Part shown: piece after piece, positions 15,937 through 46,551 of the stretch | Layout of the letters: each line of letters starts with the position of its first letter | Position numbering within the stretch: the stretch's first letter is position 1 | Assembly: GCA_009783205.1 (NCBI GenBank) | Contig: WRHO01000008.1 | Coordinates: 1-61,986, forward strand | DNA length: 61,986 nucleotides | Source of the DNA: Oscillospiraceae bacterium | Lineage (GTDB): Bacteria > Bacillota > Clostridia > Oscillospirales > Ruminococcaceae | Direction of reading: 5' to 3' | Notes under the pieces: model-generated | What the model saw: the letters and a program-made list of their open reading frames with translations, nothing else | Database searches by the model: none | What the model was told of the DNA's origin: nothing | Made by a program: the position numbers and the translations under genes

Positions 15937-18471
15937 ATGGAACAAAAATTTAAGCTTAAAGACACGGCGAAAGAATTCGGAATTGAGCCTTCGGAAATTG
16001 TGTCGATTGTAAAAGAATATCTTGGGGTTGAAAAAAAGACAACGGGGACGCTTGTTCTCGATGAGCTTGACATTATCCTCGAGAAGCTTCTTGCCGAACG
16101 CGCAACCGATAATATAGGTGAATACTTTAATTCTAAGCCTAAGAAAGTCGTAGCCGAGCCAAAGCCCGAGCCAAAACCGGCGGCAAAGGTTAAGGCGGTC
16201 AAAAAACCCGACTCGGTAACGCCTAAAGCCGTCGAAGCAACAGAAGCTCCGAAAAAGAAAACGGTGAAGCCTCTCGAGCCAAAGGTTGTTGTTAAAGAGG
16301 AAAAGACGCCGAAGCCCGAAAAGAAAAAGCTTATGCCGAAGCCCGTCAAGGCGGCGGTTGACGTCAATAAGCTTAAAATAAACGACCCGCCCAAGGCAAA
16401 ACAAAAAGGCGAAGCGGTTCAGCGCGGGGAACAAATTGTAAAGCGGGTAGACACAAGAGGTAACTATGTAGAATTAGACAGATATAACGAAAAATACGAA
16501 AGCATAGCCCGTGAACAAGGTGGGGTAAATACCCGCGAAAACCAAAATAGGAATCAGAATTCAAACAGAGGGAACTTCAACAATAATAATTTTAGGGGAA
16601 AACAAAAGTTCGGGAATCATCGGTCAAACTTCAAAAGAGGGATGCAGCCGCCCGCACGTCATAAGGAAACGGAAGCGGAAAAACAACTTCGTCTTGAACT
16701 CGAAAAAGCGAGGAATAAACAGCTTGAAATCCTTATCCCCGATAATATAGTCATATCCGAATTGGCGTCGCGCCTTAAGGTAAAGGCGAGCATAGTTATC
16801 AAAAAATTGTTCCCGTTAGGAATAATGGCGAATCAAAATCAAACCATAGATTATGACACGGCGGCTTTAGTAGCAGATGAATTGGGCGCGAAGGTGGAAA
16901 AGGAAATCATAGTAACGGTTGAAGAACGGTTGTTTGAGGAAATCGAAGATACCGAAGAAAACCTCCGCCCCCGTTCTCCCGTGGTTGTTGTCATGGGACA
17001 CGTTGACCACGGTAAAACCTCCCTCTTAGACAGTATACGCGACTCCGACGTTGCGGCGGGTGAAGCGGGGGGAATCACACAGCATATAGGCGCGCACCGC
17101 GTGAAAGCGGGCGGGAAGGATATAACCTTCTTAGACACGCCGGGACACGAAGCGTTCACCGCGATGCGGGCGAGGGGCGCGAATATAACCGATATTGCAA
17201 TTTTAGTTGTAGCCGCCGACGACGGAATTATGCCGCAGACAATTGAATCAATTAATCACGCAAAGGCGGCGGGAATTTCTATTATCGTAGCTATAAACAA
17301 AATGGATAAGCCGGAAGCAAACCCGTCGCGCATTAAACAGGAATTGACCGAACACGGGCTTTTGATAGAAGAATGGGGCGGCGATATTATATGCTGTGAG
17401 GTTAGCGCGAAACAAAAAACGGGTATAGATAATCTTCTCGAAATGATTAATCTTAACGCAGAAATGCTCGAGCTTAAAGCCAACCCCGAAAGACTCGCCG
17501 TCGGTACGGTAATTGAGGCGCGTCTCGACAAGGGCAGAGGCCCGGTAGCGACTCTTTTGGTTCAAAAGGGAACGCTCAATACCGGCGACGTTCTCATCGC
17601 GGGAACGGCTGTAGGGCGCGTAAGGGTAATGTTAGACGATAAAGGAAAGACCGCAAAAACGGCGGGGCCGTCCGTTCCGGTAGAAATAACCGGACTCGCA
17701 GAGGTTCCGAGCGCGGGAGACCAGTTTTCTGCAGTAGAAGATGAGAAATTAGCGCGTGAATTGGTTGAAAAACGTAAACACGAGGCTAAAGAAGCGCATT
17801 TCAACCAATACAAAAAGGTTACTTTAGACAGCCTTTTCAGCCATATAGAACAAGGTTCTGTAAAAGAACTTCCCATTATAGTAAAAGCAGATGTTCAAGG
17901 TTCGGTAGAAGCGGTTAAACAATCGCTCGAAAAACTTTCTCATCCCGAGGTTAAAATCAGAGTAATACACGGTGGCGTAGGCGCGGTAAGCGAGAGCGAC
18001 GTTATGCTCGCAAATGCGTCGGGCGCAATTATTGTCGGGTTTAATGTACGACCACATCCCGCGGCGGCGGAAAACGCAAAGCGCGATAATGTGGAAATAA
18101 GGGTATACAGAATCATTTACGACGCAATTGAAGAAATCGAAACGGCAATGAAGGGTATGCTCGCGCCTAAGTTTAAAGAGGTCGTTATGGCGCGGATAGA
18201 AGTCCGCAACGTGTTTAAAATAACCGGCTCGGGAATCGTCGCGGGGTGTCACGTTGTCGACGGAAAGGTTACCCGCGCTTGTGAAATTCGCGTACTCCGC
18301 GATGATGTTATCGTTTTTGAAGATAAAATTAATACCTTGAAGCGTTTTAAAGACGACGTGAAGGAAGTCGCAACGGGGTACGAGTGCGGAATAAGTCTCG
18401 AAAAATTCTCCGATATTAAAGAAGGCGACGTCTTTGAAGCGTTTATCATGGAGGAAGTGACGGACAGTTGA
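15937..18471 (+). CDS. infB: translation initiation factor IF-2
   Basis: An 844-residue GTPase that delivers initiator tRNA to the ribosome. Order: a small IF2N domain, a long low-complexity Lys/Pro/Ala-rich and then Asn/Arg-rich region (~65-250), a second IF2N domain (~265-320), the G domain with G1 GHVDHGKT (354-361), DTPGH and NKMD, then beta-barrel II, domain III and C-terminal domain IV. GTP-binding motifs are intact. The last codons and stop (TDS, TGA) run into a TTGACAG heptamer array, suggesting the repeat has replaced the original 3' end of the gene. Confidence 0.96.
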
Positions 18472-18538
18472 CGGCAGTTGACAATTGACAATTGACAGTT
18501 GACAGTTGACGGCAGTTGACAGTTGACAGTTGACAGTT
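18463..18538 (+). repeat. heptamer (TTGACAG) array at the infB stop codon, copy 2
   Basis: About ten seven-base units (CAGTTGA/CAATTGA), with two CGG interruptions, start at the infB stop and fill the gap to the rbfA ribosome-binding site. The orientation on the sense strand is the same as in the other copies. Confidence 0.9.
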
Positions 18539-18556
18539 TATAGGAGGTGGGTTGTT

Positions 18557-18895
18557 TTGAATAAGAATATACAACGATTGGCAGAGGATATTAAACGGGA
18601 AATATCCGTAACAATGCGCGAGGTTGTTACGGAGGGTATTGTTTCGGTTTCACATTGTGAGCTGTCTAACGATTTGTCTTATTGTAAAGTCTTTATATCG
18701 ACCTATGAGGGCGGCGAAAAAACGGTTCATGAAGCGGAAAAGCTAAAAACAAAGGCGGGGCTTTTTAAAAAGCATATAAACGCCCGTATACGAATGAGAA
18801 AAATTCCGGAGCTTATTTTCCTCCCGGACAACTCCTTAGATTATTATGACAAAATTACGGGTATAATTGATGAATTAGGAATTGCCAAAAAATAA
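18557..18895 (+). CDS. rbfA: ribosome-binding factor A
   Basis: A 112-residue KH-fold protein that matures the 30S subunit by acting near helix 1 of 16S rRNA. The TTG start was chosen because GGAGGTGG lies seven bases before it and the reading frame upstream is repeat DNA. Family signatures are seen: IQRLAEDIKREIS near the start, SNDLSYCKVFIS in the middle, and RIRMRKIPELIFLPDNSLDY near the end. The position after infB is conserved. A further single GTTGACAG follows its stop codon. Confidence 0.93.
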   Translation: MNKNIQRLAEDIKREISVTMREVVTEGIVSVSHCELSNDLSYCKVFISTYEGGEKTVHEAEKLKTKAGLFKKHINARIRMRKIPELIFLPDNSLDYYDKITGIIDELGIAKK

Positions 18896-19093
18896 AGTTG
18901 ACAGGTTTGGCGCAGTGTTTTTGTCGGCAGACGAGGCGAAATTTTTGCGAATATCCGTGTATATTTAAGAAAATTTCAACGAAGTATGTCAGCAAAAATA
19001 CAAGGGAAACGTCAAGTTTATTTATTGACGATTCCTTAAACGAGAAAAAAGTCTGAAACTGATTTTACAGAGCTTTTTGCGGCTCGAAAAGGC

Positions 19094-20098
19094 ATGGTCA
19101 CAAAAATGGAAATTACGCTTCAACAGACGGCTGAATTTTTTAGAGAAAACGACGACTTCACATTGATTTGTCATTCAAACCCCGACGGCGATACCCTCGG
19201 AAGCGGGTATGGTCTGTGCGGGGTTTTGCATATTATGGGAAAACGCGCGCGCATTATATGCGACGACGAACCGTCCTCGCGGTTTGATTTTTTAGCGGAG
19301 GCGATAGACCCGAGGCTTACGGAGCTTGCCAAAGACGCGGACGAGACAATAATAACGATTGACGTTGCTGATGTTGAGCTTATCGGCTCGCTAAAAGACC
19401 GATATCCCGATATCGACCTTTGTATCGACCACCACGTTTCAAATAAAAATTACGCAAAGCGACTCCTCATAGACAACACCTCGGCGTCGTGTGCAATGGT
19501 TGTTTGGGAATTGATAAAAGAGCTTATTTCGGAAAAACAACTAAAAGAGACCCCTAAGGCGCGTGCAATCGCGGCGGCAATATATACGGGTATCTCGACC
19601 GACACCGGCTGTTTCAGATACAGCAATACCTCCGCAAAATGTCACCATACCGCCGCCGAATTAATGGCGTATTCGTTTAATGTTACAAAAATTAACTACC
19701 TTATGTTTGAAATGAAAACGAGGGAACGCATTTCGTTAGAAATCGAAGCGTTTAACGGGATTGAGTTTTATTGGGGCGGTAAATGCGCCGTTATAAGCCT
19801 CACCCGGCAAATGCTTGACGGAATTGACCCCGAAGACGCGAGTAACGTGTCCTCTCTCCCAAAACAAATCGAAGGGGTGTCGGCGGGAATTGTGTTTAAG
19901 GAGAAAAAAGAGGACGTCTGGAAAATATCCGTCCGCACCGACGAAAACATAAACGCACAAACGCTATGCAGCGCGCTCGGCGGCGGGGGACACATTCGCG
20001 CCGCCGGTTGTACATTAAAAGGAACGCTCGAATCGGTTAAAAAAGCGGTATTATCTGAAATAGAAAAACAAATAGATAATGGGGTCAAGGAATTATGA
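19094..20098 (+). CDS. nrnA: DHH/DHHA1 phosphoesterase, NrnA-like oligoribonuclease/pAp phosphatase
   Basis: A 334-residue enzyme of the DHH superfamily. HSNPDGDTLGSG (~26-37) and the DHH motif in IDHHVSNKNY (~115-124) form the Mn2+ site, and GGGGHIRAAGC near residue 298 is the DHHA1 substrate-binding motif. The family degrades nanoRNAs and dephosphorylates pAp. A start four codons downstream (MEITLQQ) is equally possible, because AAAAGG lies very close to the first ATG. A ~200-base stretch without a gene separates it from rbfA. Its TGA overlaps the truB ATG. Confidence 0.92.
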   Translation: MVTKMEITLQQTAEFFRENDDFTLICHSNPDGDTLGSGYGLCGVLHIMGKRARIICDDEPSSRFDFLAEAIDPRLTELAKDADETIITIDVADVELIGSLKDRYPDIDLCIDHHVSNKNYAKRLLIDNTSASCAMVVWELIKELISEKQLKETPKARAIAAAIYTGISTDTGCFRYSNTSAKCHHTAAELMAYSFNVTKINYLMFEMKTRERISLEIEAFNGIEFYWGGKCAVISLTRQMLDGIDPEDASNVSSLPKQIEGVSAGIVFKEKKEDVWKISVRTDENINAQTLCSALGGGGHIRAAGCTLKGTLESVKKAVLSEIEKQIDNGVKEL

Positions 20099-21009
20099 AC
20101 GGTATAATCTGTGTGTATAAACCGACGGGGTATACCTCATTCGATATAATAGCAATAATGCGGCGGCTTTTGAATACAAAAAAAATCGGACACTCGGGAA
20201 CGCTCGACCCAATTGCGGAGGGGGTTCTCCCCGTTTTTGCGGGGGCGGCGACGCGGGCAATTGATTATTGTCCCGATACCGACAAAGAATACCGCGCCGG
20301 GTTTCGTATCGGTACAACCACCGATACACAGGATATAAGCGGACAAGAGCTTTCGCGGGTCAATTCAAACATTCCCGACGAGGTTTTATTATCAAGGATA
20401 AAGGCGGCGATTTTAAACTACATAGGCGAAATCGAACAAATTCCCCCTATGTATTCTGCGGTTAAGGTAAAGGGAAAACGGCTTTACGACTTGGCGCGAA
20501 AGGGCATCGAGGTAGAACGGACACCGCGAAAAATCACCGTACATTCTATCGAAATTGAACACTATGCCGACTCGGAGGGCATTATAAAGATTAGCTGTTC
20601 AAAGGGAACCTATGTTCGAACCTTAATCCACGATATAGGTCAAAGCATAGGATTCGGCGCGGTTATGACCGCGTTACAGCGGACTAAGTCCAACGGCTTC
20701 GCCCTCGGCGATTGTTATACATTAGAAGAGCTGCGCGAGATACACGCCGCCAACCCCGCTAAATTAGAATCGCTTTTAAAACCTTTAGACATTCTTTTTG
20801 ATTACCCTAAGGGGTATTTGGACGAGCGACAAACCGAGCTTTACAGAAACGGCGCGATTCTTAACGCCGACCTCGTTAAGCTTCAACAAATATACGACGG
20901 CTTTTATTCACTTTACGACAGCGATAACAGAATTGTCGCATTGGCAAAAATAGGCGAAGACCACTCTTTATTAATAGAACACAGGTTTCATTACAGCGGC
21001 TCTGTTTGA
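20095..21009 (+). CDS. truB: tRNA pseudouridine-55 synthase
   Basis: A 304-residue TruB that isomerises U55 in the T loop of tRNAs. The catalytic Asp is D38 in SGTLDPIAEG, following the YKPTGYTSFD segment. KEYRAGFRIGTTTDTQD, PPMYSAVKVKGKRLY and SCSKGTYVRTLIHDIG are the other conserved blocks, in order. The C-terminal ~80 residues form a PUA-like extension. It is coupled by overlap to nrnA and followed by ribF, the usual truB-ribF pair. Confidence 0.96.
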   Translation: MNGIICVYKPTGYTSFDIIAIMRRLLNTKKIGHSGTLDPIAEGVLPVFAGAATRAIDYCPDTDKEYRAGFRIGTTTDTQDISGQELSRVNSNIPDEVLLSRIKAAILNYIGEIEQIPPMYSAVKVKGKRLYDLARKGIEVERTPRKITVHSIEIEHYADSEGIIKISCSKGTYVRTLIHDIGQSIGFGAVMTALQRTKSNGFALGDCYTLEELREIHAANPAKLESLLKPLDILFDYPKGYLDERQTELYRNGAILNADLVKLQQIYDGFYSLYDSDNRIVALAKIGEDHSLLIEHRFHYSGSV

Positions 21010-21050
21010 TATTTAGAAAATAGAAAAATGCTTGACGAGGAGGATACGGC

Positions 21051-21929
21051 TTGACTCTAAACAATCACAATTATACCGCGGCGGTCGCGCTCGGAATGTT
21101 CGACGGCGTTCATATCGGACACGTTGAGGTTATTAACTCCGCCCTTGAACAAGAGCGATTAAACGGTTTAACGCCGGCGGTTTTTACGTTTCGAACCCTT
21201 TCGAAATATTCAAAAAGCATACTCCCCTATCAAAGGAAGTTTACCCTTCTTAAAGCGGCAGGAATAAAGAAAATTTATTCATCTGATTTTGAAAGCATAA
21301 AGGATTTAACGGCGGAGGAATTTGTACAACAAATTTTAATCGAAAAAATGAACTGCGGACACGTTTCCTGCGGCTGGAATTTTAGGTTCTCAAAAGATGC
21401 AAAAGCCGACGCAAACGACCTAAAACGAATTTGTGAAGCCCGCGGAATAAAGGTAAGCATAATTAAGCCGATTGATATAAACGGACTCCCCGCGAGTTCG
21501 ACGCGAATCCGCGAGGCAATCCAAAACGGCGATATCTCTTTAGCAAATAAAATGCTCGGAACCGACCTCACCTATGAATTAGAGGTGATTGAGGGGGCAA
21601 AATTAGGGCGTACCTTAGGCGCGCCGACAATTAATCAAATAATCCCCGCCGATTGTGTCCTTCCAAAATTCGGCGTATATAAAAGCCGCGCATTGGTTGA
21701 TGTTATTCACTATACTGCGGTAACAAACATAGGAACAAAGCCGACCGTAGACGACGGGAACACGCCTATTATGGAAACCCATATACCCGGGTTTAACATG
21801 GAAATATACGGGCAAACCGTAACGGTGAGTCTCTTAGAATTTATCAGAGAGGAAAAAAAGTTTACGTCGCTCGATGAGCTTAAAGCACAGATTCAGCTTG
21901 ATGTAAAAAAAGCGTGCAAAGGCAGATGA
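21051..21929 (+). CDS. ribF: bifunctional riboflavin kinase/FAD synthetase
   Basis: A 292-residue enzyme making FMN and FAD from riboflavin. The TTG start was chosen for the GAGGAGG eight bases upstream. The N-terminal adenylyltransferase half contains GMFDGVHIGH (HxGH motif) and SSTRIREAI. The C-terminal riboflavin kinase half begins with GAKLGRTLGAPTIN (most relatives have GFPTAN, so Ala for Phe is a small deviation). The stop TGA is the first base triplet of another heptamer array. Confidence 0.95.
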   Translation: MTLNNHNYTAAVALGMFDGVHIGHVEVINSALEQERLNGLTPAVFTFRTLSKYSKSILPYQRKFTLLKAAGIKKIYSSDFESIKDLTAEEFVQQILIEKMNCGHVSCGWNFRFSKDAKADANDLKRICEARGIKVSIIKPIDINGLPASSTRIREAIQNGDISLANKMLGTDLTYELEVIEGAKLGRTLGAPTINQIIPADCVLPKFGVYKSRALVDVIHYTAVTNIGTKPTVDDGNTPIMETHIPGFNMEIYGQTVTVSLLEFIREEKKFTSLDELKAQIQLDVKKACKGR

Positions 21930-21963
21930 CAGTTGACAATGGACAGTTGACAGCTGACAGTTG
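21927..21963 (+). repeat. heptamer (TTGACAG) array at the ribF stop codon, copy 3
   Basis: TGACAGT, TGACAAT, GGACAGT, TGACAGC, TGACAGT: five units beginning exactly at the stop codon and ending at the poly-G ribosome-binding region of the next gene. Confidence 0.85.
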
Positions 21964-21968
21964 GGGGG

Positions 21969-22583
21969 GTGAGGTTAGTGTTTAGGCGGTATATTTTACC
22001 TTTGTTATTGGGGTTGGCTTTAGGCGCGATTTCGGTGCTTATCGGTCATACGCCGAAAACAATCGTGGCAATAACGGGAATGAGAGTTATCGGTAACCAA
22101 ATAGGTTACTCTCTCGGTATATTAGCGATGACCTATATTAATTCCGACAAATGGTTACGAGGCTTTGTCGCGGGTTCGTTAATGAATTTTGTTGCAACGG
22201 TTGTGTACTATGTCGCGATTTATACAATTAATGCGTTATCAACAAACGTAACCGGTTATAGCTTTGAATGGGTCGATTTGATTCTTTGGACTGTTTTAGG
22301 CGCGGGTTGCTCCGCTTTGGCGGCATCAGCGGTCAGATTTGGGGTTTACGGCAAATCGAAGCTTATTAGATATTCTGCGGCTTTCGTAACACATTCGGCG
22401 TTAATGCTGGCTGTCTTATTGTTTCAGGCACTCCCGTTTTTTATAAGACTCCATAGCGATGCTTTAACAACAGAAGACGGGGTTGCGAGAAATATATATG
22501 AAATCTTTTTCGCGCTTTTTCTTATATCGGCAATGTTCATAATTTTTTATAAACGGAACAGGAGGGATAATGAAACAGATTAG
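21969..22583 (+). CDS. polytopic membrane protein, hypothetical
   Basis: A 204-residue integral membrane protein with about five to six hydrophobic segments (approximately 8-25, 40-55, 65-85, 100-125, 140-155 and 175-195). I do not recognise a named family; it resembles small uncharacterised clostridial membrane proteins. Two GTG starts are possible: the listed one, or one three codons later that sits nine bases after a GGGGGG run. It overlaps gltX by 14 bases and therefore probably belongs to the same transcript. No functional motif is visible. Confidence 0.7.
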   Translation: MRLVFRRYILPLLLGLALGAISVLIGHTPKTIVAITGMRVIGNQIGYSLGILAMTYINSDKWLRGFVAGSLMNFVATVVYYVAIYTINALSTNVTGYSFEWVDLILWTVLGAGCSALAASAVRFGVYGKSKLIRYSAAFVTHSALMLAVLLFQALPFFIRLHSDALTTEDGVARNIYEIFFALFLISAMFIIFYKRNRRDNETD

Positions 22584-23946
22584 AACGAGGTTCGCACCGA
22601 GTCCCACAGGGTTTATGCACTTGGGGAACCTAAGGACGGCATTATATGCGTGGTTATACAGTAAGAACAACAACGGGTCGTTTATACTAAGGGTTGAAGA
22701 TACCGACCGGTCAAGATATGTAGAGGGCGCGATTGATGTCATATATGAAACGCTCAAGGATTGCGGCTTAAGCTGGGACGAGGGGCCGGACGTCGGCGGC
22801 GATTACGCGCCATATATACAAAGCGAGCGCAAGGACTCATATATGGAATATGCGTTAAAGCTAATTGAAAAGGGGGACGCTTATTATTGTATATGCCCGC
22901 CGGACTGTGATACCTGTACCTGTCGGGATTTGAAGCTCGAACAACCGTCACAGCCCTTTGTTATAAGACAAAAGTCGCCCAAAGACGGCTCAACATCGTT
23001 TAAAGACGAAATTTACGGGGAAATAACGGTCGATAATAAGGAAATAGAAGACCAAATCCTTATTAAATCGGACGGAATGCCCACATATAATTTTGCAAAC
23101 GTCATAGATGACCATTTTATGAACATTACTCATATTATACGCGGAAACGAGTATCTGACCTCTACCCCTAAGTACAACCTTTTGTACGAGGCGTTCGGGT
23201 GGGAGCTTCCCGCATATATACACGTTCCGCAAATAATGCGCGACGCGACGCACAAGCTTTCGAAGAGGGACGGAGACGCCTATTTCGGCGATTTCAAGGA
23301 GAAGGGCTACCTCACCTCCGCGATTATCAATTATATTGCCTTACTCGGTTGGTCACCAAAGGGGGGGGACGCAGAGCGCGAAATATTCACGCTCGACGAA
23401 TTGGCAAGAGCCTTCGGCACAGACGGCATCTCCAAATCCCCCGCTATATTTGATTCGGAAAAAATGCGGGCGATTAATGCCGAGCATATTCGCCGCCTCT
23501 CCCCCGAACAGTTTAAAGAAGCGGCAATCCCTTATATCGGCGACCACCCCGTTAATTATGATATTCTTTGCGCCGCGCTTCAACCGCGAACCGAGGTCTT
23601 GTCCGATATTACGGCACAGGTTGATTTCCTCAAAGAACCTTGTGCCTATACCCCCGAGCTTTATTATAACAAGAAAATGAAAACATCTCCCGATACGGCG
23701 CGTTCCGCGTTAAATGAAGCATTGGGTGTTTTAAAATCTACAGAAAGCTTTACCAAAGATGAATTATACTCTGCGTTCAAACTTCTCGCAGAAGAAAATG
23801 CACAAAAACCGGGTTATTACCTTTACCCGCTACAGATTGCATTAACGGGAAAACCCGCCGCACCCGGCGGCGGTCTCGATATATGCGTAATGTTCGGTAA
23901 AGAAGAAAGCATGAACAGAATCGGCAAGGCGATTGAGGAACTATAA
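22570..23946 (+). CDS. gltX: glutamyl-tRNA synthetase
   Basis: A 458-residue class I aminoacyl-tRNA synthetase that charges tRNA-Glu. The HIGH-like motif FMHLGN is at residues 15-20 and the KMSKS-like KLSKR at 229-233. A Cys-rich loop (CxC, then CDTCTC, around 103-115) may bind zinc. The C-terminal anticodon-binding helical domain ends at about 458, slightly shorter than many GluRS. Ribosome-binding site ACAGGAGGG. In this lineage GluRS may also charge tRNA-Gln for amidation, which the window cannot show. Confidence 0.96.
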   Translation: MKQIRTRFAPSPTGFMHLGNLRTALYAWLYSKNNNGSFILRVEDTDRSRYVEGAIDVIYETLKDCGLSWDEGPDVGGDYAPYIQSERKDSYMEYALKLIEKGDAYYCICPPDCDTCTCRDLKLEQPSQPFVIRQKSPKDGSTSFKDEIYGEITVDNKEIEDQILIKSDGMPTYNFANVIDDHFMNITHIIRGNEYLTSTPKYNLLYEAFGWELPAYIHVPQIMRDATHKLSKRDGDAYFGDFKEKGYLTSAIINYIALLGWSPKGGDAEREIFTLDELARAFGTDGISKSPAIFDSEKMRAINAEHIRRLSPEQFKEAAIPYIGDHPVNYDILCAALQPRTEVLSDITAQVDFLKEPCAYTPELYYNKKMKTSPDTARSALNEALGVLKSTESFTKDELYSAFKLLAEENAQKPGYYLYPLQIALTGKPAAPGGGLDICVMFGKEESMNRIGKAIEEL

Positions 23947-23970
23947 ATTACTCACAGAAAGGGCGCGTGT

Positions 23971-24711
23971 ATGATAGAAGTACGCAACCTGACCAAATCC
24001 TACTCAAACGGCGAAAAAGCAGTTGACAACATATCCTTCACCGTCGGAGAAGGGGAAATATTGGGCTTCTTAGGCCCAAACGGTGCGGGAAAATCCACAA
24101 CAATGAACATTTTAACCGGCTACATTTCATCAACCGACGGAAGCGCGGTTATCGGCGGCGTGGACGTTCTTGAGGAGCCGATTGTTGCAAAAAGGAAAAT
24201 CGGATACCTCCCCGAACAACCGCCGTTGTACCCCGACATGACGGTTGACGAATATTTGCGTTTTATTCATGAGCTAAAGAAGTCAAAGCTTCCAAAAAAC
24301 ACACATTTGAACGAGATATGCGAATTGGTAAAGGTAAACGACGTGCGCGGGCGATTAATTCGCAATTTGTCAAAGGGCTACAGACAAAGGGTGGGCTTAG
24401 CGGGGGCTTTGGTGGGCAATCCGCCGATATTAATTCTTGACGAGCCGACCGTCGGTCTTGACCCTAAGCAAATCATAGAAATAAGAACGCTTATTAAACA
24501 GTTGGGAAGGAATCACACCGTAATACTTTCATCGCATATTCTGCCCGAGGTTCAGGCGGTATGCGATAAAATCGTTATTATCAACGAGGGGAAAATCGTT
24601 GCGGACGGGGACTTGGAAGGCTTGCGGTCAAGATTCAAGACCGAAACGGACGAGGAATTGTCATTGGAACAGATATTTATTAAACTCATATATGGAGAGG
24701 GGATAATATAA
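23971..24711 (+). CDS. ABC transporter ATP-binding protein (GldA-like)
   Basis: A 246-residue ABC ATPase. Walker A GPNGAGKST (35-43), Q-loop YLPEQPPLYPDMTV, signature LSKGYRQRVGLAGAL and Walker B ILILDEPTVGLD are all intact. It is the first of four genes with the order ATPase, permease, GldG-like protein, DUF4340 protein. This layout resembles the gliding-motility genes gldA-gldF-gldG of Bacteroidota but is also common in non-gliding bacteria, where the substrate is unknown. Its stop overlaps the permease start by one base. Confidence 0.9.
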   Translation: MIEVRNLTKSYSNGEKAVDNISFTVGEGEILGFLGPNGAGKSTTMNILTGYISSTDGSAVIGGVDVLEEPIVAKRKIGYLPEQPPLYPDMTVDEYLRFIHELKKSKLPKNTHLNEICELVKVNDVRGRLIRNLSKGYRQRVGLAGALVGNPPILILDEPTVGLDPKQIIEIRTLIKQLGRNHTVILSSHILPEVQAVCDKIVIINEGKIVADGDLEGLRSRFKTETDEELSLEQIFIKLIYGEGII

Positions 24712-33624: not shown

Positions 33625-33636
33625 GAATTATCTAAT

Positions 33637-36605: not shown

Positions 36606-36625
36606 CCCGACAAAGCTTTGTCGGG
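36606..36625. repeat. 20-base perfect palindrome between rplO and secY
   Basis: CCCGACAAAGCTTTGTCGGG is fully self-complementary with no loop. It is intergenic, about 64 bases before the secY start. A nearby AAACAAGAGCTTAC copy (36571-36584) is in the opposite orientation to most family B elements. Confidence 0.7.
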
Positions 36626-36634
36626 CTTTCAAAT

Positions 36635-37320: not shown

Positions 37321-37351
37321 AATAATCTATCTCCCCTATTAAAACTAAAAA

Positions 37352-37375
37352 ACTGTCAACTGTCAATTGTCGTCA
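37352..37375 (-). repeat. heptamer (TTGACAG) array at the rpsE stop codon, copy 4
   Basis: On the gene strand: TGA (stop), CGA, CAATTGA, CAGTTGA, CAGTT. It begins at the rpsE stop codon and runs into the rpmD leader. Confidence 0.8.
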
Positions 37376-37882: not shown

Positions 37883-37942
37883 ACTAAATCTCCCTTTAAT
37901 ATAACTGTTAATCGTTACATAAAAATTATTAAAATAATATCT

Positions 37943-38302
37943 TTAAAACTTAAGTCCGCCTTCGCGCGCGCCCTCTGCTAAAGCCGCAACACGACCGTGA
38001 TAAATATAACCCGAGCGGTCAAACACAACCTCGGTTATACCGACCTTTTTGCCCTTTTCGGCAATCGTCATTCCGATTTTTTTCGCCGCCTCAACATTCC
38101 CGCCCGACTCGGTAAAGCCTTTCTCGGTAGTTGACGCCGCGCAAATTGTAACGCCTTTGTCGTCATCAATCAACTGTGCGTACATATGGTTCGCCGAACG
38201 GAACACATTTAAACGCGGACGAGCCGCCGTTCCGCTTATTTTGCCTCTTACTCTTTTATGTCTGCGAAGTCTGTTCGCGTTTTTATTTATTTGTTTAATC
38301 AT
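37943..38302 (-). CDS. rplR: 50S ribosomal protein L18
   Basis: A 119-residue 5S rRNA-binding protein. The [24 protein letters not shown] start, the [12 protein letters not shown] block and the C-terminal [23 protein letters not shown] are diagnostic. It lies between rplF and rpsE as expected. Confidence 0.97.
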
Positions 38303-38376
38303 AACACCATTTCTCCTATATGCTAAACTGAACTTTAATAAAGCATAAGCCTCTTTTGTTAAGCTTTAGCCACCCG

Positions 38377-38922
38377 TTAAGCTTTACCCTTACCGGCTTT
38401 ACCCTCTTTACGTCTGACAACCTCATCGACATATCTGATACCCTTGCCCTTATATGGCTCGGGGGGGCGCAAGCTTCTTACTTCGGCGGCAAATTGTCCG
38501 ACCTTTTGCTTATCAATACCGCTGATAATAATTTTATTGGGGCCGGGTGCTTCTATGGTTATGTCCGCCGTGTCGGAAACAATTACCGGGTGCGAGAACC
38601 CCAAATTTAAATCGAGGTCTTTTCCCTTTTTCTGACAACGATATCCGACACCTTGAATCTCGAGTTCTTTATTAAAGCCGACGGTAACGCCGGTTACCAT
38701 GTTGTTAATAAGCGTTCTCGTCAACCCGTGCAGTGAACGGTCGGTCTTGCTTTCGGTTTCGGGAACGACAGTAATCACTCCCCCGTCGAGCGTTATTTTC
38801 ATAGACGGTTGAAACTCTCTTGAAAGAGTACCCTTTGGGCCTTTTACGGTCACCGAGCAACCGTCAATTTTCACATCTACCCCGGTCGGAACCGTTATGG
38901 GCGTTTTACCAATTCTTGACAT
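38377..38922 (-). CDS. rplF: 50S ribosomal protein L6
   Basis: A 181-residue L6 with two tandem domains near the factor-binding centre. MSRIGKTPITVPTGVDV opens the first domain. The second has VGYRCQKKGKDLDLNLGFSHP and the signature PPEPYKGKGIRY. The tail is Gly/Lys-rich. Its stop lies in an AAAGCTTAAC word related to dispersed family B. Confidence 0.97.
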   Translation of the reverse strand: MSRIGKTPITVPTGVDVKIDGCSVTVKGPKGTLSREFQPSMKITLDGGVITVVPETESKTDRSLHGLTRTLINNMVTGVTVGFNKELEIQGVGYRCQKKGKDLDLNLGFSHPVIVSDTADITIEAPGPNKIIISGIDKQKVGQFAAEVRSLRPPEPYKGKGIRYVDEVVRRKEGKAGKGKA

Positions 38923-38979
38923 CTTGGAATCTCCCCTTATATATTTACAAATGTTAATTCAAATTATAACCGTACACGT

Positions 38980-39054
38980 CAAGCTCTCGTCCGCGCTCAC
39001 CTGCTTGTCGGCAGAGCCGTCAACCTGCTCGCGCTACCGTAAGCTCTTGTTTAC
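38980..39054 (-). repeat. degenerate family B element between rpsH and rplF
   Basis: The gene-strand sequence just after the rpsH stop contains AAACAAGAGCTTAC at its start and GAGCTTGACGTG further on, with GC-rich DNA between. The rest of the 132-base gap shows nothing but the rplF ribosome-binding site. Confidence 0.5.
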
Positions 39055-39453
39055 CTACCAGACAAACGCGAGAACTTCGCCGCCCACCTGTTCGGCTCTT
39101 GCTCTTCTGTCGGTCATAATACCCTTTGAGGTAGACACAATGGCAATCCCGAGACCCTTCATAACCTTCGGCATTTCGCGCGAATTTGAATAAATTCGCA
39201 AGCCGGGTTTAGAAACCCTTCTTAAACCGGTTATAACCTGTCCCTTGTCCTCGGTATATCTCAAAACAATTCTTAAAACACCCTGTTTATTGTCTTCAAT
39301 AATTCTGAAATTCTTTATATATCCCTCGTCTTGAAGAATTTGTGCAATTTGTTTCTTCTCGTTGGAACAGGGGATATCAACGATAGGGTGCTTTGCCGAA
39401 TTAGCGTTACGAATTCTCGTAAGCATATCTCCGATTGTGTCGGTAACTTTCAT
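39055..39453 (-). CDS. rpsH: 30S ribosomal protein S8
   Basis: A 132-residue primary 16S rRNA-binding protein. The start ([18 protein letters not shown]) was chosen over an upstream in-frame ATG because GAGGGAGGAAAAG lies in front of it and it matches the family. The C-terminal block [27 protein letters not shown] is diagnostic. Confidence 0.97.
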
Positions 39454-39524
39454 TTTCTTTTCCTCCCTCATAAAATGGATACTCGCCAAGCGCGCTCGCC
39501 GTCGAGTTTACGCTTTTGTTTGGC

Positions 39525-39710
39525 TTACCATGATGATTTTCTTACGCCGGGGATATGCCCCTTATATGCTAATTCACGGAAACAAATTCTGCATACGCCG
39601 AACTTACGCAAATATGCGTGCGGTCTTCCGCAAAGCTTACATCTGTTATAAGCTCTCGTCGAAAACTTCGGCTCTCTTTTTTGTTTCGCAATCATTGATT
39701 TCTTTGCCAT
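39525..39710 (-). CDS. rpsZ: 30S ribosomal protein S14, zinc-binding type Z
   Basis: A 61-residue short S14. The zinc ligands C24/C27 (CKLC) and C40/C43 (CRIC) define the type Z (C+) paralogue rather than the longer zinc-free form. The end [11 protein letters not shown] is diagnostic. Confidence 0.97.
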
Positions 39711-39767
39711 AATTATGACTATACCTTTCCGAGCCGCAAAAAGGCTCTACGAACATATGCTTCTTAA

Positions 39768-40307
39768 TTATTTAGCGAACGGCGCGCCCATTAATGTCAA
39801 CAACTCTTTTGCTTCCTCGTCGGTTTTTGCCGTCGTTACAAAGTTTATGTCCATTCCCCTGATTGCATCAATTTTATCGTATTCGATTTCGGGGAAAATT
39901 AACTGTTCCTTAACGCCCACCGAATAATTACCGCGTCCGTCAAACGAATTGGGATTAATTCCGCGGAAGTCTCTTACACGAGGTAACGCCACATTGAAAA
40001 ATCTGTCGAGAAACTCGTACATGATTTTATCGCGAAGCGTGAGCTTAACGCCTATCGGGTTTCCTTCACGAAGCTTAAAGTTAGCGACGGATTTTTTTGC
40101 GAGACATACTACCGGTTGTTGCCCGGTGATATCCTTCAAATCTCTCATAATGCTGTCTATAACCTTAGAGTTATCCTTTGCCTCTCCACAGCCTACGTTA
40201 ATCGTTATTTTATCAATTTTAGGAATCTGCATTACGCTTTTATACCCAAATTTCTTAAAAAGCTGTGGTGCAACCGTTTCCTTATAATAAGCCTTCAATC
40301 TTGCCAT
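39768..40307 (-). CDS. rplE: 50S ribosomal protein L5
   Basis: A 179-residue L5, which binds 5S rRNA and contacts the P-site tRNA. The ATG giving [20 protein letters not shown] was chosen over an upstream in-frame ATG in the gap. [28 protein letters not shown] and the C-terminal [21 protein letters not shown] are family blocks. Confidence 0.97.
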
Positions 40308-40395
40308 TTTTGTTAATCTCCTTTTCGGAAGCGGGATTTGTAACAACTACACCCCACCACTCCGCTTAGCATAAAAACATAATTGTTTATGTCGT

Positions 40396-40746
40396 TTATA
40401 GCGTCGCGCCGCATTTTTTGCAAATTCTTATCTTGACCGTCTCGCCCTTGACTTCTTTAAAGCTGTGACCGACCCGCGTCGGCTTGTCACATTTCGGGCA
40501 AACAATTTGAACCTTACAGGCATAAATCGGTGCCTCGGCATCAATTATACCGCCGGGTTGTCCCATTTGTCTCGGTTTAACGTGTTTTTTTACCTTATTA
40601 ATCCCCTCGACAATAACCTTACCCTCTTTTGGGCTTACCCCGACAACCTTGCCTTTTCTTCTGACGCCCGGCTTGGTAAACTTATCTTGATACTTTCCCG
40701 TTAATAAAACGACCGTATCCCCTTTTTTTACGTGTAAGCTATTCAT
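40396..40746 (-). CDS. rplX: 50S ribosomal protein L24
   Basis: A 116-residue assembly-initiating protein with an N-terminal KOW motif ([18 protein letters not shown]). The C-terminal half has a [11 protein letters not shown] and CKKCG Cys set (CxxC...CxxC), a putative zinc ribbon seen in several bacterial L24 proteins. The start overlaps the rplN stop by one base. Confidence 0.96.
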
Positions 40747-41114
40747 TACAGCACCTCCGGAGCTAAGGAAAGAATTTTTATATATTCTTTTTCGCGGAGT
40801 TCTCTTGCCACCGGCCCGAAAATACGCGTTCCTCTTGGATTCTTGTCTTCTTTTATTAAAACGGCAGCGTTTTCGTCAAAACGAATATATGTGCCGTCTG
40901 CTCTGCGAACACCGGTAGCCGAGCGAACAATTACGCATCTGACCACCTCGCCTTTTTTGACCGTACCGCCGGGACTCGCCTTCTTGACCGACGCAACAAT
41001 CACATCGCCGATATTAGCGTATTTTCTGCGGGTACCGCCCAACACTCTAATGCACATTATTTCTTTTGCGCCCGTATTGTCGGCAACTTTAAGCCGCGAT
41101 TGCATCTGTATCAT
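40746..41114 (-). CDS. rplN: 50S ribosomal protein L14
   Basis: A 122-residue L14 at the subunit interface. [46 protein letters not shown] and the C-terminal [14 protein letters not shown] are diagnostic. Length is normal. Confidence 0.98.
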
Positions 41115-41195
41115 TTTCTTACCCTTTCTCTAAAGAACTGCCTACTCTCGTTAAGCCACACTTTCTATATTCCGCCTATATTCCGCGAGTACAGC

Positions 41196-41462
41196 CTATT
41201 TTGCGCGCTCGAGTACATTAACCAATCTCCACCGTTTTTCCTTAGAAAGCGGGCGGGTCTCCATAATCTCGACCTTATCGCCGACATTACAGGTGTTCTC
41301 TTCATCGTGTACCTTAAACTTAATTGTACGTTTAACGATTTTTTTGTATAACGGATGACGAACCTTATCCTCAATTTCTACGACAATTGTTTTGTCCATT
41401 TTGTTTGAGGAAACCATTCCTACTCTCGTTTTTCTCAAATTTCTTGTAATTGTATCGCTCAT
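41196..41462 (-). CDS. rpsQ: 30S ribosomal protein S17
   Basis: An 88-residue OB-fold protein binding the 5' domain of 16S r[23 protein letters not shown] and [19 protein letters not shown], then [21 protein letters not shown] are the standard blocks. Confidence 0.97.
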
Positions 41463-41480
41463 TTATTCTCCCTCGCCCCC

Positions 41481-41693
41481 TTAACCGTTCACCGCGTCAG
41501 AAAGCTGACGCTCACGTTGGATTGTTTTAATAATTGCAATCTGCCTTTTAACAGCTTTAACCCTCATAGGATTATCGAGCTGATTTATTGCAAGCTGAAA
41601 ACGGAGATTAAAGAGTTCCTGTTTAAGCTCGTTGACCTTACTGTCGAGTTCTTGTTCCGAAAGGTCTCTGAATTCATTTGCGTTTATTTTCAT
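41481..41693 (-). CDS. rpmC: 50S ribosomal protein L29
   Basis: A 70-residue helical-hairpin protein near the tunnel exit, the docking site for trigger factor and SRP together with L23. [36 protein letters not shown] is the family core. It overlaps rplP by one base. Confidence 0.95.
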
Positions 41694-42139
41694 TATTCAC
41701 CGACCTCCTTTTCCGAGGCGTCATTAATACTGTCTTCTCTTTTAACAAATTTACATTTTACCGGAAGCTTGTGCATTGCGAGACGCATAGCCTCTCTTGC
41801 CGTTTCTTCGGGAACGCCGGCGATTTCGAACATAACCCGACCCGGCTTCACAACCGCCACCCAGTATTCGGGTGAACCTTTACCGGAACCCATGCGGGTT
41901 TCTGCCGGCTTCTCGGTAACGGGCTTATGCGGGAAAATCTTAATCCAAACCTGCCCGCCGCGCTTAATGTAACGCGTCATAGCGATACGTGCGGCTTCTA
42001 TTTGATTAGAAGTAATCCAAGACGGCTCTGTCGCCTGTAACCCGTATTCGCCATTGCTGACCGTGTTGCCGCGAGTCGCTTTACCGGTCATACGTCCGCG
42101 ATGTTGACGTCTATATTTAACTCTTTTAGGAATTAACAT
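41693..42139 (-). CDS. rplP: 50S ribosomal protein L16
   Basis: A 148-residue L16 that organises the A-site tRNA elbow region. [24 protein letters not shown], then [30 protein letters not shown] and the [24 protein letters not shown] block are diagnostic. Length is normal. Confidence 0.98.
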
Positions 42140-42187
42140 TTTTATCTCTCCTCTGTGCCTAATTACTTAATTATCCGCTCTGAACGC

Positions 42188-43126
42188 TTATTCTTCTGCG
42201 GGAGCCGCCTGTTCGGGTGTTGTCGCCTCTGCTTCGGGAGCGGGGGCTGCCGCCGGTTTGGGAGCGGGGGTGTTTCTGAATCCGCCTTGTGGTCTCGGCC
42301 CCGTCGGTCTTTCGTCTCTGCCGCCAAATCTTCCACCCTGTCTGTCGCCGTCTCTGCCCCTGAATCCGCCTTGGCGGTCGTTGCGGTCACGACGCTCACC
42401 TCTCGGGCGGTCATCGCGGCGTTTCTTTGTTCTGTCGGCAATTTGACGTTGCTTTGCACCCGCCTCGCCTTTGAGAACCTCGCCCTTATAAATCCATACC
42501 TTTACGCCGATTATACCATAAGTTGTATTTGCTTCGGCGGTTGCATAATCAATATCTGCGCGGATTGTATGCAAGGGGATTGTACCCTCGTGATAACTTT
42601 CCGAACGCGCAATTTCCGCTCCGCCGAGTCGCCCGGATACCATTGTCTTTATTCCGTGCGCGCCGGCGTCCATTGTGCGTTTAATGCTCATTTTTAACAC
42701 GCGCCTGAACGAAGAACGCGCCTCAAGCTGTCTCGCTATATCCTCCGCTACCAATTTAGCCGTGAGGTCTATATCTTTTATTTCAACTATATTGAGGTTG
42801 ACCGGTTTTCCTTTGGTTATCTTCTCAATCGCAACGCGAATTTTTTCAATCTCCGCGCCCTTTTGCCCAATCAAAAGCCCGGGCTTCGCGGTATGAACAA
42901 ATACCTTTATCTTTGTTGCGTCGCGCTCAATTTCAACATTCGCAATGCCCGGCTTCATAGGCACGGGTGATTTATCCGAGGAATAAGTTTTCGACAGAAG
43001 ATACTTACGAATCATGAAATCCTCAACTAAAGTATCTCCGAAATCCCTCTTCCCCGTAAACCAACGAGAATCCCAATCTTTTATAACACCGACTCTAAGT
43101 CCGTGCGGATTAACCTTTTGTCCCAT
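42188..43126 (-). CDS. rpsC: 30S ribosomal protein S3 with long Arg/Gly-rich tail
   Basis: A 312-residue S3, about 90 residues longer than the E. coli protein. The KH type II domain ([19 protein letters not shown]) and the C-terminal S3 domain ([36 protein letters not shown]) are normal. After about residue 225 comes a low-complexity tail rich in Arg, Asp, Gly, Gln and then Pro/Ala ([18 protein letters not shown]; end [11 protein letters not shown]). Similar RGG-like tails occur in clostridial relatives. The tail lies near the mRNA entry channel and may bind RNA, which is inference. Confidence 0.96.
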
Positions 43127-43169
43127 ACTTTTCCCCTTACTATTTCTCTATAAACATAGATTATATTAT

Positions 43170-43511
43170 TTACGCCTGTTCAGCTTCTTTTAATACTAAA
43201 ACAACGTGCGACGTTCTTTTAAAAATTCTGTGTGCGCGTCCGTGGTCTTTAGGTCTTATTCTCTTTAAAATAACCCCCGGCCCACAATGACACTCGGAAA
43301 TGTAACATTCGGATAAATCCATTTCGTGATTATTCTCCGCGTTTGCCATAACCGATTTAAGAAGCTTTTGCAAAGGCTCGCTCGCGGATTTAGGTGTATG
43401 CTTCAATATAGCCATAGCCTCTTCACATTTCTTATTTCTTATTAAATCAAGCACAATCTTGACCTTTCGCGGTGAAATGCGAATAAATTTAAGTTCAGCT
43501 CTTGCTTCCAT
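43170..43511 (-). CDS. rplV: 50S ribosomal protein L22
   Basis: A 113-residue L22 lining the exit tunnel. The ATG giving MEARAELKFIRISPRKV was chosen because GAAGGAGAGAG precedes it; a longer in-frame form overlaps rpsS. VLDLIRNKKCEEAMAIL and RAHRIFKRTSHVVLVL are diagnostic. The rpsS-rplV gap contains another GAACAAGAGCG word. Confidence 0.96.
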   Translation of the reverse strand: MEARAELKFIRISPRKVKIVLDLIRNKKCEEAMAILKHTPKSASEPLQKLLKSVMANAENNHEMDLSECYISECHCGPGVILKRIRPKDHGRAHRIFKRTSHVVLVLKEAEQA

Positions 43512-43543
43512 TTTCTCTCTCCTTCGCTCTTGTTCTGCCTTTA

Positions 43544-43819
43544 TCACTTCTTAGTGGTTTTACTTCCGGCGTGACCTCTGTAGGTTCTTGTCGGTGCAAA
43601 TTCGCCCAGCTTATGTCCGACCATATCCTCGGTTACATAAACCGGAATATGCCTTCTGCCGTCGTGAACATTAAAAGTGTGACCGATAAAATCGGGGAAT
43701 ATAGTGCTTGCGCGACTCCATGTGACAAGAACTTTTTTCTCCTGCGCTTTATTCATCGCCTGAACGCGTTTTAACAACGCTTCTTGAACATATGGCCCTT
43801 TTTTTACGCTTCTGCTCAT
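43544..43819 (-). CDS. rpsS: 30S ribosomal protein S19
   Basis: A 91-residue head protein. [38 protein letters not shown] and [23 protein letters not shown] are the conserved blocks. Confidence 0.97.
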
Positions 43820-43857
43820 ATTAAAACCTCATTTATATAATATATAATTTGCTTTAC

Positions 43858-43979
43858 AACCTCGTCGTCAAGCTACGCTCTTGTTTTACAACCTCGTCGT
43901 CAAGCTACGCTCTTGTTTTACAAACTCGTCAAGCTGCGCTCTTGTTTTGCAAACTCGTCAAGCTGCGCTCTTGTTCTGA
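43858..43979 (-). repeat. tandem family B array (32/29-base units) between rplB and rpsS
   Basis: On the gene strand the unit reads AACAAGAGCGCAGCTTGACG followed by AGTTTGTAA (29 bases) or, with an extra ACG and GG for TT, 32 bases. Two 29-base and two 32-base copies follow each other with few differences. The 166-base gap otherwise holds only the rpsS ribosome-binding region. Confidence 0.85.
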
Positions 43980-43985
43980 CCTTGC

Positions 43986-44819
43986 TTACTTTTTACCTCT
44001 GCGTTTGACAATAAACTTATCCGAACTCTTGTTTGTTTTACGTGTTTTGTATCCTAATGCGGGCTTACCCCAAGGTGTTACGGGGCCGGGTCTTCCGACG
44101 GGCGATTTACCCTCGCCACCGCCGTGCGGATGGTCACAGGGGTTCATTACCGAACCGCGTACCGTGGGTTTAATACCCATATGGCGAACTCGACCGGCTT
44201 TACCGAGATTTACATTGCCGTGGTCGGGGTTTGAAACCGTTCCTATCGTAGCCATACACTTAGCGGATACATTGCGTAATTCCCCGCTCGGCAATCTCAA
44301 AAGTGCCATTGAGTTTTCCTTAGCCATAAGCTGTGCGGAATTTCCCGCGCTTCTCACCAACTGACCGCCCTTACCCGGATAAAGCTCAACATTGTGAACG
44401 ACCGTACCCAAGGGCATATCGGCGAGCTTCATCGCGTTACCGATTTTGATATCCGAGCCGGCACCCGCGCGGATTACATTACCCACCTCTAATTTATCGG
44501 GTGCAATAATATAACGCTTTTCGCCGTCCTCATACTCGACCAACGCTATGAACGATGTACGGTTAGGGTCATACTCAAGAGTTAAAACCGTAGCGTCCAT
44601 ATCTAATTTATTGCGTTTAAAATCAATGATTCTGTATTTTTTTCTGTTACCGCCGCCCTTATGTCTTACGGTAATCTCGCCGCCCGCGCTTCGTCCCGAA
44701 TGTTTCTTAACAGGTGTCAGAAGGCTCTTTTCGGGTTTGACCTTAGAAAGCCCCGAATAATCTACAACAGACATTCCTCTGCGCCCCGGCGTAGTCGGCT
44801 TATAAAATTTAATTGCCAT
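43986..44819 (-). CDS. rplB: 50S ribosomal protein L2
   Basis: A 277-residue L2 required for subunit joining and peptidyl transferase activity. [20 protein letters not shown] and [23 protein letters not shown] at the start, then [22 protein letters not shown] are diagnostic, the last containing the conserved His essential for activity in E. coli. Length is normal. Confidence 0.98.
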
Positions 44820-44834
44820 TACAAATATCTCCTC

Positions 44835-45134
44835 TTAATTCATTCCGTCGAAGAATTCAATTGTCTTAGACCCCTCTGCCAAAGTCACGATTGCTTTTTT
44901 CCAACTTGCCGTATAACCTTGTTTCATTCTTTGACGTCTTAACTGTCCTCTGACGTTCATTGTGTTAACCTTAGAAACCTTAACGCCGGCGAACAAAGCT
45001 TCAACGGCTTTTTTTATCTCAATTTTATTTGCTCTTTTATCAACCTTAAAGGTGTACTTCCCTTGAATCAGATTATCGTTTGAACGCTCGGTGATAACCG
45101 GACTCAGTATTATATCCTGCGGTATAAACTGCAT
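44835..45134 (-). CDS. rplW: 50S ribosomal protein L23
   Basis: A 99-residue L23 at the tunnel exit. DIILSPVITERSNDNLIQGKYTFKV, then KANKIEIKKAVEALF-like block (KRANKIEIKKAVEALF) and VNTMNVRGQLRRQR are diagnostic. The start overlaps the rplD stop by one base. Confidence 0.96.
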   Translation of the reverse strand: MQFIPQDIILSPVITERSNDNLIQGKYTFKVDKRANKIEIKKAVEALFAGVKVSKVNTMNVRGQLRRQRMKQGYTASWKKAIVTLAEGSKTIEFFDGMN

Positions 45135-45757
45135 TACGCATACACCTCCTCAATTTTAGCCACCGCGTCTTTGACGACGATTAGCTTATCGTGATTGAGA
45201 ATATCATAAACGCAAAGCGTATTCACTAATGTTGTTTTAACACCCGGAATATTCGACGCGCTCTTGATAATCATTTTATCAACACCGTCAAGAACGAGCA
45301 ACGCTTTTCTGTCTACGTTTAAATCGCTCATCATTTTGACTATTGTTTTTGTTTTAAACTCGTCCATTTTTAATCCGTCTAAAACGAGCATTTCTCCTAA
45401 ACCCACCTTAGACGAAAGTGCCGATTTCATAGCGATACGTCTGACCTTTTTATTGAGTGAGTAACGATAACTCCTCGGCTTAGGGCCGAGCGCAACGCCG
45501 CCGTGTCTCCAGTGTGGGCTTCGTGTCGAGCCTTGTCTTGCGCGACCGGTTCCCTTTTGTCGCCAAGGCTTTTTGCCGCCGCCGCGAACCTCTGTTCTCG
45601 TTAAGGTCGATTGTGTTCCCTGCCTTTGATTGGCGAGGTAATTAACAACCGCCGCGTGCATTATTTCTTTATTCGGTTCAATCCCGAAAATATCATCGCT
45701 TACCGTCAGAGTAGAAGTCTCTTTTCCTGACATATCGTAAACTTTAACATCTGCCAT
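45134..45757 (-). CDS. rplD: 50S ribosomal protein L4
   Basis: A 207-residue L4, whose long loop reaches into the exit tunnel. QGTQSTLTRTEVRGGGKKPWRQKGTGRARQGS and TRSPHWRHGGVALGPKPRSY form that loop. L4 represses the S10 operon in E. coli; whether it does so here is not visible. Confidence 0.97.
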   Translation of the reverse strand: MADVKVYDMSGKETSTLTVSDDIFGIEPNKEIMHAAVVNYLANQRQGTQSTLTRTEVRGGGKKPWRQKGTGRARQGSTRSPHWRHGGVALGPKPRSYRYSLNKKVRRIAMKSALSSKVGLGEMLVLDGLKMDEFKTKTIVKMMSDLNVDRKALLVLDGVDKMIIKSASNIPGVKTTLVNTLCVYDILNHDKLIVVKDAVAKIEEVYA

Positions 45758-45782
45758 TGTCTATTCCTCCTAACTCTGTTTC

Positions 45783-46418
45783 CTAAATAGCTTTGACCGC
45801 GTCGGTGATACAAACGATTCCGTTTTTTGGGCCGGGAATCGCGCCTTTTATTGCAATCAGATTATTTTCGGCGTCCACCTTAACAATCGTCAAATTTTGT
45901 ATTGTTATCCTATCGGTTCCCATATGTCCCGGCATTTTCATTCCCTTGAAAATTCTCGACGGACTTGAACAAGCTCCCATAGAACCCGCGTGTCTGTGTA
46001 CCGGCCCCGAACCGTGGGTTTCTTTTATCCTCGACGCACCGTGACGTTTAATAACACCTTGGAACCCTTTACCCTTGCTGATTCCGCTGACGTCAATTAC
46101 ATCGCCGGCTTCAAAAACGTCCGCTTTAAGAATGTCGCCGACGTCAATTGTCGATATATCATCAAGCCTGAACTCCCTGAGCGTTCTTTTAAAAGGTACA
46201 TCGTTCTTCTTAAAATGCCCCTGTCTCGGTTTGTTCACTCCCTTTGGAGAAATATCGCCGAAACCGATTTGTACCGCTTCGTAACCGTCGTTTACATCGG
46301 TCTTTTTTTGAACCACTACGCATGGCCCCGCTTCAATTACCGTTACCGGAATAACCCTTCCGTTTTCATCGAAAACCTGCGTCATGCCGATTTTCTTCCC
46401 GATTAATCCTTTTTTCAT
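45783..46418 (-). CDS. rplC: 50S ribosomal protein L3
   Basis: A 211-residue assembly-initiating protein near the peptidyl transferase centre. The ATG giving [20 protein letters not shown] was chosen because it matches the family start and follows GAGGGGGA; a longer frame begins in the gap. The internal [20 protein letters not shown] block and [23 protein letters not shown] are diagnostic. Confidence 0.97.
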
Positions 46419-46505
46419 CTCGGGTTCCCCCTCATTAATAATATTTCTGTCATTGGTTGGTCTCCCCAACATAACTTAAATCCAAATCTACCTACTTTAT
46501 TAACA

Positions 46506-46551
46506 AACTGTCAACTGTTTCGTCAATTGTCAACTGTCAATTGTTTCGTCA
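46506..46551 (-). repeat. heptamer (TTGACAG) array at the rpsJ stop codon, copy 5
   Basis: On the gene strand: TGA (stop), CGAAA, CAATTGA, CAGTTGA, CAATTGA, CGAAA, CAGTTGA, CAGTTTG. It begins at the rpsJ stop codon. The motif CAATTGACGAAACA recurs at the -35 region of the addB promoter. Confidence 0.85.

Follow-up and report, generated by a model that had tools for sequence, protein, structure and literature searches.

Why small bacterial repeats gather at the 3' ends of genes is a question raised by a 61,986-nt stretch of DNA (the window) from a gut bacterium of the Oscillospiraceae, in which tandem arrays of the heptamer CARTTGA close several genes. The repeat takes over the stop codons of the core genes infB, rpsE and rpsJ with little change to the proteins. 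It is polar and has stops on one strand only, so that selection and targeting predict different, countable patterns of orientation and frame. The window is contig C8 of G000, a 1.91-Mb genome in 49 contigs whose nearest named relatives by rplB are Oscillospiraceae metagenome-assembled genomes with 81% amino-acid identity.

The window holds 32 matches to CAGTTGACAGTTGA at no more than two mismatches, where 0.25 are expected, and six CARTTGA arrays (Table 1). The original prediction had placed arrays exactly at stop codons and always in the same orientation. The five gene ends that it named check out in coordinates and stops, and translation confirms that the array encodes the last residues of an ATPase (QLTNN) and of IF-2 (TDS). 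The rule of position holds for these five arrays; the sixth, missed earlier, lies inside an addA-like open reading frame (ORF). The rule of orientation holds for all six, since the sense strand of the host gene reads CARTTGA in each.

The same arrangement recurs across G000. Exact CARTTGA-CARTTGA dimers were listed genome-wide (49 + 61 + 28 = 138), and all 138 lie inside the fetched stretches, in which an in-house hexamer caller delimited the genes and start codons are uncertain. There are 65 arrays, 9 within coding sequence (6 sense, 3 antisense) and 56 outside it. Forty-four of the latter are flush with an upstream stop in sense, 2 belong to convergent pairs, none is flush in antisense, and 10 lie elsewhere; counting the 2 in convergent pairs, 46 of 56 adjoin a stop in sense. 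Random placement, modelled by putting arrays only into spacers of the fetched stretches, predicts 4.7% sense-flush arrays in G000 and 1.9-5.6% for G000 and its relatives. The CARTTGA pattern read backwards is the same repeat in another phase and is thus not valid as a null. Among the ten arrays elsewhere, one in sense starts 4 nt after the Rfam-defined 3' end of a 23S rRNA, one lies 6 nt from the 5' end of a tRNA and reads away from it, and one is antisense between two tRNA genes. The others lie close to starts, follow other fragments of repeats, or are distant from any called gene.

The stop codon is TGA in 42 of 46 array genes, compared with 108 of 363 genes without arrays. A wider distance limit puts 48 of the 65 arrays at stops, giving 48 array genes instead of 46 stop-abutting arrays. 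The stop precedes the array in 22 of these genes and lies inside it in 26, at +7 in 13, at +14 to +18 in 10 (positions +14, +17 and +18) and at +21 in 3. The frame in which the array is entered, modulo three, is divided 15/17/16, indistinguishable from random. A TGAYG leader stands immediately 5' of the first unit in 29 of the 65 arrays, and CAGTTGA (159) and CAATTGA (89) account for most of the 306 units. On the 3' side the distance to the next start varies around a median of 38.5 nt: it is at most 10 nt for one array of 48, 11-50 nt for 28 and more for 19.

Comparison of 3' ends with orthologues lacking the array, as the original prediction had proposed, indicates that protein length is roughly kept. 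Orthologues were sought for 24 of the 48 array genes, plus infB, and were found for 22 genes, drawn from the close relatives G006, G003 and G010, which are array-poor by a trimer pattern, and from G066. In 21 of 22 genes the distance from array entry to the end of the orthologous protein is between -3 and +9 codons. It is 25 codons in the single outlier, a gene whose products in two other relatives stop 5 and 7 codons past array entry. The infB product ends in VKQ-stop without an array in G006 and G003, and in VTDS-stop in G000. Native stops in the 22 orthologues are TAA (14), TGA (6) and TAG (2), and where orthologues are comparable the array starts between about 30 nt upstream and a few nt downstream of the native stop. 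These near-native lengths show that arrays in the compared genes sit at true gene ends and usually replace the native stop. Native same-strand spacers (n = 20), taken from short loci of relatives that possibly have repeats of their own, have a median of 74.5 nt, so flush placement is not forced by tight spacing. Tight operon spacing was rejected as its cause on this ground, and also because some flush arrays of G243 have a long spacer on their 3' side.

The repeat is patchy among relatives. The trimer pattern at no more than one mismatch is found in 15 of 60 genomes including G000 (13 of 35 others of the genus and 1 of 24 of the order), and across the phylum the exact trimer is present in 11 of 398 genomes, again counting G000. 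Six further genome sets, two from other families, were classified by the same script as G000 and have the same excess of sense arrays at stops. Given as sense-flush/convergent/antisense-flush/other, the counts are 44/2/0/10 for G000, 14/0/0/3 for G021, 10/1/2/2 for G023, 17/1/2/4 for G027, 23/0/0/12 for G020, 20/0/0/32 for G243 and 7/0/0/9 for a small set (G122, G126 and G220, the last represented by one contig). Only part of the listed places was fetched for G020 and G027 (20 and 16 stretches, mostly from lower-numbered contigs). The 215 pooled non-coding arrays comprise 135 sense-flush, 4 convergent, 4 antisense-flush and 72 others, and 31 more arrays lie within genes in both orientations (18 sense, 13 antisense). 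TAA or TAG makes up 13 of the 27 flush stops in G243 and the small set taken together, an indication that the arrays there have left the native stop in place.

Copies without an orientation bias or a link to stops, the outcome named beforehand as a refutation, are thus not what G000 and its relatives contain. A purely translation-linked preference, which had been offered as one explanation, is not upheld. The even entry frame, the copy at the 23S rRNA and the mixed orientation within genes indicate that translation termination alone is not the cue.

The reading that we favour, and to which we give about an even chance, is that the arrays represent a small repeat, dispersed and of fixed polarity, that behaves like REP/REPIN elements. 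The outer end of such an element, marked by the TGAYG leader, would adjoin the gene end, with the array pointing away from it; some relatives have two of these arms opposed across a core. Any 21 nt of CARTTGA repeats contain TGA in each of the three frames, but on a single strand. A sense copy near a native stop therefore supplies a new stop and alters only the last few residues, as the orthologues show. The copies within genes leave the reading frame open, being either antisense or sense arrays that mostly contain TGG units. The enrichment at the 3' ends of genes may then reflect an insertion preference, or retention of harmless or useful copies in the 3' region of transcripts, as has been reported for REP sequences. 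The bias towards the 3' ends of genes lies either in how copies arrive or in which of them are kept, and the evidence fits both.

The two-armed forms are found by counting inverted partners within 300 nt on the 3' versus the 5' side of an array. These number 12 versus 0 in G020 (38 arrays), 18 versus 2 in G243 (53 arrays), 5 versus 0 in G023 (25 arrays), 4 versus 2 in the small set (16 arrays), and 99 versus 13 at loci from a viral collection (154 arrays). One contig of that collection (L312) is 100% identical to the whole of an 8001-nt stretch (L141) of contig C19 of G000. Judged by eye, the core between inward-facing arms is often hairpin-like. With paired inward-facing arms, a sense arm faces the upstream stop whichever way the element is inserted. 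Of the 13 antisense arrays that G243 has between tandem genes, 7 begin 16-29 nt from a start codon.

Several observations weigh against a REP-like element. The arrays of G000 are nearly all single arms, with 3' inverted partners for 2 of 65 (and 2 on the 5' side) where a shuffled control gives 1, so arm symmetry does not explain their orientation there. In G243, 32 of the 52 arrays at gene edges or between genes do not abut a stop, and nor do 9 of 16 in the small set. No Y1_Tnp match was found in G000, and a resident Y1/RAYT transposase was accordingly rejected as the mover in this genome; among genomes G001-G035, Y1_Tnp matches are present in 3 of 13 array carriers (G008, G020 and G029) and in 10 of 22 pattern-free genomes. 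Neither spacers at orthologous sites nor an empty site were found to align at nucleotide level, and no target-site duplication of the kind that marks MITEs was seen. The units, by eye, are tandem direct heptamers and not palindromes with a GTAG or CGTC head (see below).

Insertion anywhere followed by purifying selection only, with sense copies surviving at gene ends because they bring a stop, is unlikely as the whole explanation. It agrees with the in-gene arrays of G000, where five of the six in sense carry TGG units, the sixth is a bare dimer, and those in antisense are open; MacGregor (2015, PMC4679880) argues for such selection on forward and reverse TAACTGA repeats. Copies in antisense after a stop or in mid-spacer should be as harmless, yet flush antisense arrays number 0 of 56 in G000 and 4 of 215 in the pool, and 11 of the 20 native same-strand spacers are at least 64 nt long. 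Selection against harm does not account for the rarity of both kinds of copy in G000, and the spacer data already put a strain on this explanation. The earlier suggestion that selection removes copies elsewhere thus fits the open frames within genes and part of the orientation bias, but not this rarity.

A role of the RNA in the 3' region of transcripts, such as mRNA protection, termination, or ribosome hand-over via overlapping UUGA start-stop codons, might also keep sense copies in place, and is likewise an improbable account. When array genes were set against loci from other species, 7 of the 18 pairs had an array at the orthologous stop in both; the loci had mostly been fetched for holding arrays. 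For the 48 arrays of at least 28 nt, compared with mononucleotide shuffles, the predicted fold is stronger for the sense strand, with a mean of -8.8 kcal/mol and a mean z of -1.6, against -4.1 kcal/mol and -0.2 for the antisense strand. However, the perfectly self-pairing unit CAGCTGA makes up only 1 of the 306 units, which gives no sign of selection for the fold, and RNA folding was rejected as the selected feature on that count. By the trimer pattern 22 of 35 genomes of the same genus manage without the repeat, and one array adjoins a 23S rRNA.

It is also conceivable, though we consider it a long shot, that a process guided by the ends of transcripts, and not by DNA sequence, brings the repeat specifically to the 3' boundaries of genes, where it would act as a portable stop codon and 3' cap. 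Such delivery would explain the sense polarity, the even frame, the closeness to native stops (within about 30 nt) and the copy that starts 4 nt past the 23S rRNA.

The TTGACA contained in the units could act as a mobile -35 box driving the next gene, which is very doubtful. A five-of-six match to TATAAT at a spacing of 16-18 occurs in 11 of 65 arrays, compared with 3 at 12-14 and 6 at 20-22, but the other 54 have no such match, and the arrays keep their place relative to the stop before them, whereas the next start lies at varying distances. This promoter reading was set aside as weak.

That arrays expanded locally, from a single CAATTGA already present at the stop, is scarcely credible. In favour of this, the first unit at the L124_3903 gene coincides with a last Asn codon and stop that are shared with an orthologue (EYGFN-TGA), and near the stops of 352 array-free genes the leader-like TGACGG occurs 12 times in sense and once in antisense, an excess that is partly built in because a TGA stop is itself always in sense. 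Against it, 14 of 22 orthologues end in TAA, the CARTTGA unit recurs at tens of loci, and single CARTTGA copies near the same 352 stops are found 10 times on each strand, on which account seeding by single copies at stops was rejected. Equally improbable is an artefact in which flushness is built in, since the TGA of a sense array would itself close whatever ORF runs into it: this is in principle true for the 26 of 48 genes with the stop inside the array, and in others the TGAYG leader may belong to the element, but orthologues are at most 9 codons longer than the core of the array gene in 21 of 22 cases and the array is preceded by TAA or TAG in 4 of 48 genes of G000 (as in 13 of 27 of G243 and the small set). 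For the compared genes the artefact is already refuted.

The window features are collected in Table 1.

Table 1. Repeat arrays and neighbouring sequence features of the 61,986-nt window
Feature	Position	Strand	Context
CARTTGA array at end of ParA-like ATPase gene	3096..3127	-	Gene 3110-3739 (-); array encodes last residues, ...PWQLTNN-stop inside array
CARTTGA array at end of infB	18463..18540	+	infB 15937-18471 (+); ...VTDS-stop inside array; rbfA next
Array at end of ribF	21923..21964	+	ribF 21051-21929 (+); stop is TGA of first unit CAGATGA; variants CAATGGA and CAGCTGA present
rpsE stop TGA + CGA + array CAATTGACAGTTGACAGTTTT	37349..37375	-	Stop 37373-37375; TGA-CGA-CAATTGA; in ribosomal-protein operon
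29-nt tandem repeat (ACAAGAGCG..AGCTTGACGA; dispersed form ACAAGAGCG..GCTTGACGA)	43865..43975	-	Directly after rplB stop, sense
GTTGG..CCAACCAATAACC motif	46449..46467	-	Between rpsJ and likely rplC start 46418
rpsJ stop TGA + CGAAA + array	46504..46551	-	Stop 46549-46551; TGA-CGAAA-CAATTGA
In-gene array, about 17 copies	47816..47931	-	addA-like ORF 47149-50454 (-); sense; between UvrD_C and PD-(D/E)XK matches

Pfam matches for the ParA-like ATPase are below the curated cut-off. In the addA-like ORF, CAGTGGA and CAATGGA units hold the frame open and the array encodes (QLTVDSG)n. This expanded array lies in a helicase-nuclease gene, and REPs have been reported from the same kind of repair genes. 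The rpsJ stop also bears an array in two other loci, L031 (where the stop is TAA) and L032 (TGA), and has none in the other seven compared (L033-L036, L086, L090 and L101). At the rpsE end of L032, the TAA is directly abutted by a GTAGGG-type palindrome where the window has the heptamer array. The GTTGG..CCAACCAATAACC motif recurs in several relatives (L031-L036) and by eye looks like a structured leader, in which case rplC would begin downstream of its longest-ORF start at 46472.

A second, unrelated repeat follows the rplB stop, and its first letters, ACAAGAG, were used for a 7-mer motif search in G000. Of the 23 intergenic clusters that face a stop on their 5' side, 14 lie within 20 nt of it, although some of the 14 are without the rest of the repeat and some are perhaps there by chance; on the opposite side, 1 of 8 facing a stop lies as close. 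The search also matches 52 places in coding sequence. Clusters at L112, L121, L143, L144, L149 and others have a tendency to follow stops in sense. Anchoring at stops may thus extend beyond the CARTTGA heptamer.

Among known systems, the heptameric STRR repeats of cyanobacteria are dispersed tandem heptamers with units different from CARTTGA. Five 14-letter strings of the CARTTGA repeat were not found in the literature searched. REP sequences are palindromes of 20-40 bp with a GTAG or CGTC head, as described by Di Nocera (2013, PMC3733652) and Nunvar (2010, PMC2817692). Compared with the REP, REPIN and BIME systems as outlined there, the arrays of G000 are single-armed and no Y1 transposase gene was found in that genome; compared with the inverted dimers of REPINs, a 3' inverted partner accompanies 12 of 38 arrays in G020 and 18 of 53 in G243 but 2 of 65 in G000. 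The closest likeness is to the TAACTGA direct repeats described from Beggiatoaceae, Cyanobacteria and Bacteroidetes (MacGregor 2015, PMC4679880). Both are 7-nt direct repeats of patchy occurrence, mostly intergenic and strongly of a single orientation, and both have stops in three frames on one strand, reverse copies within ORFs and copies in ribosomal operons. Thirteen TAACTGA sets overlap an upstream stop in forward orientation. The unit is different, however, and so is the anchor: in the main Beggiatoaceae genome the TAACTGA repeats are anchored to the downstream start codon, with the largest class 1 nt upstream of it, while CARTTGA is anchored to the upstream stop and, unlike the forward TAACTGA sets, has a varying distance to the next start, rarely within 10 nt. 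The CARTTGA repeat appears to act like a REP but is not a REP by sequence, and is a sister kind to the TAACTGA heptamers.

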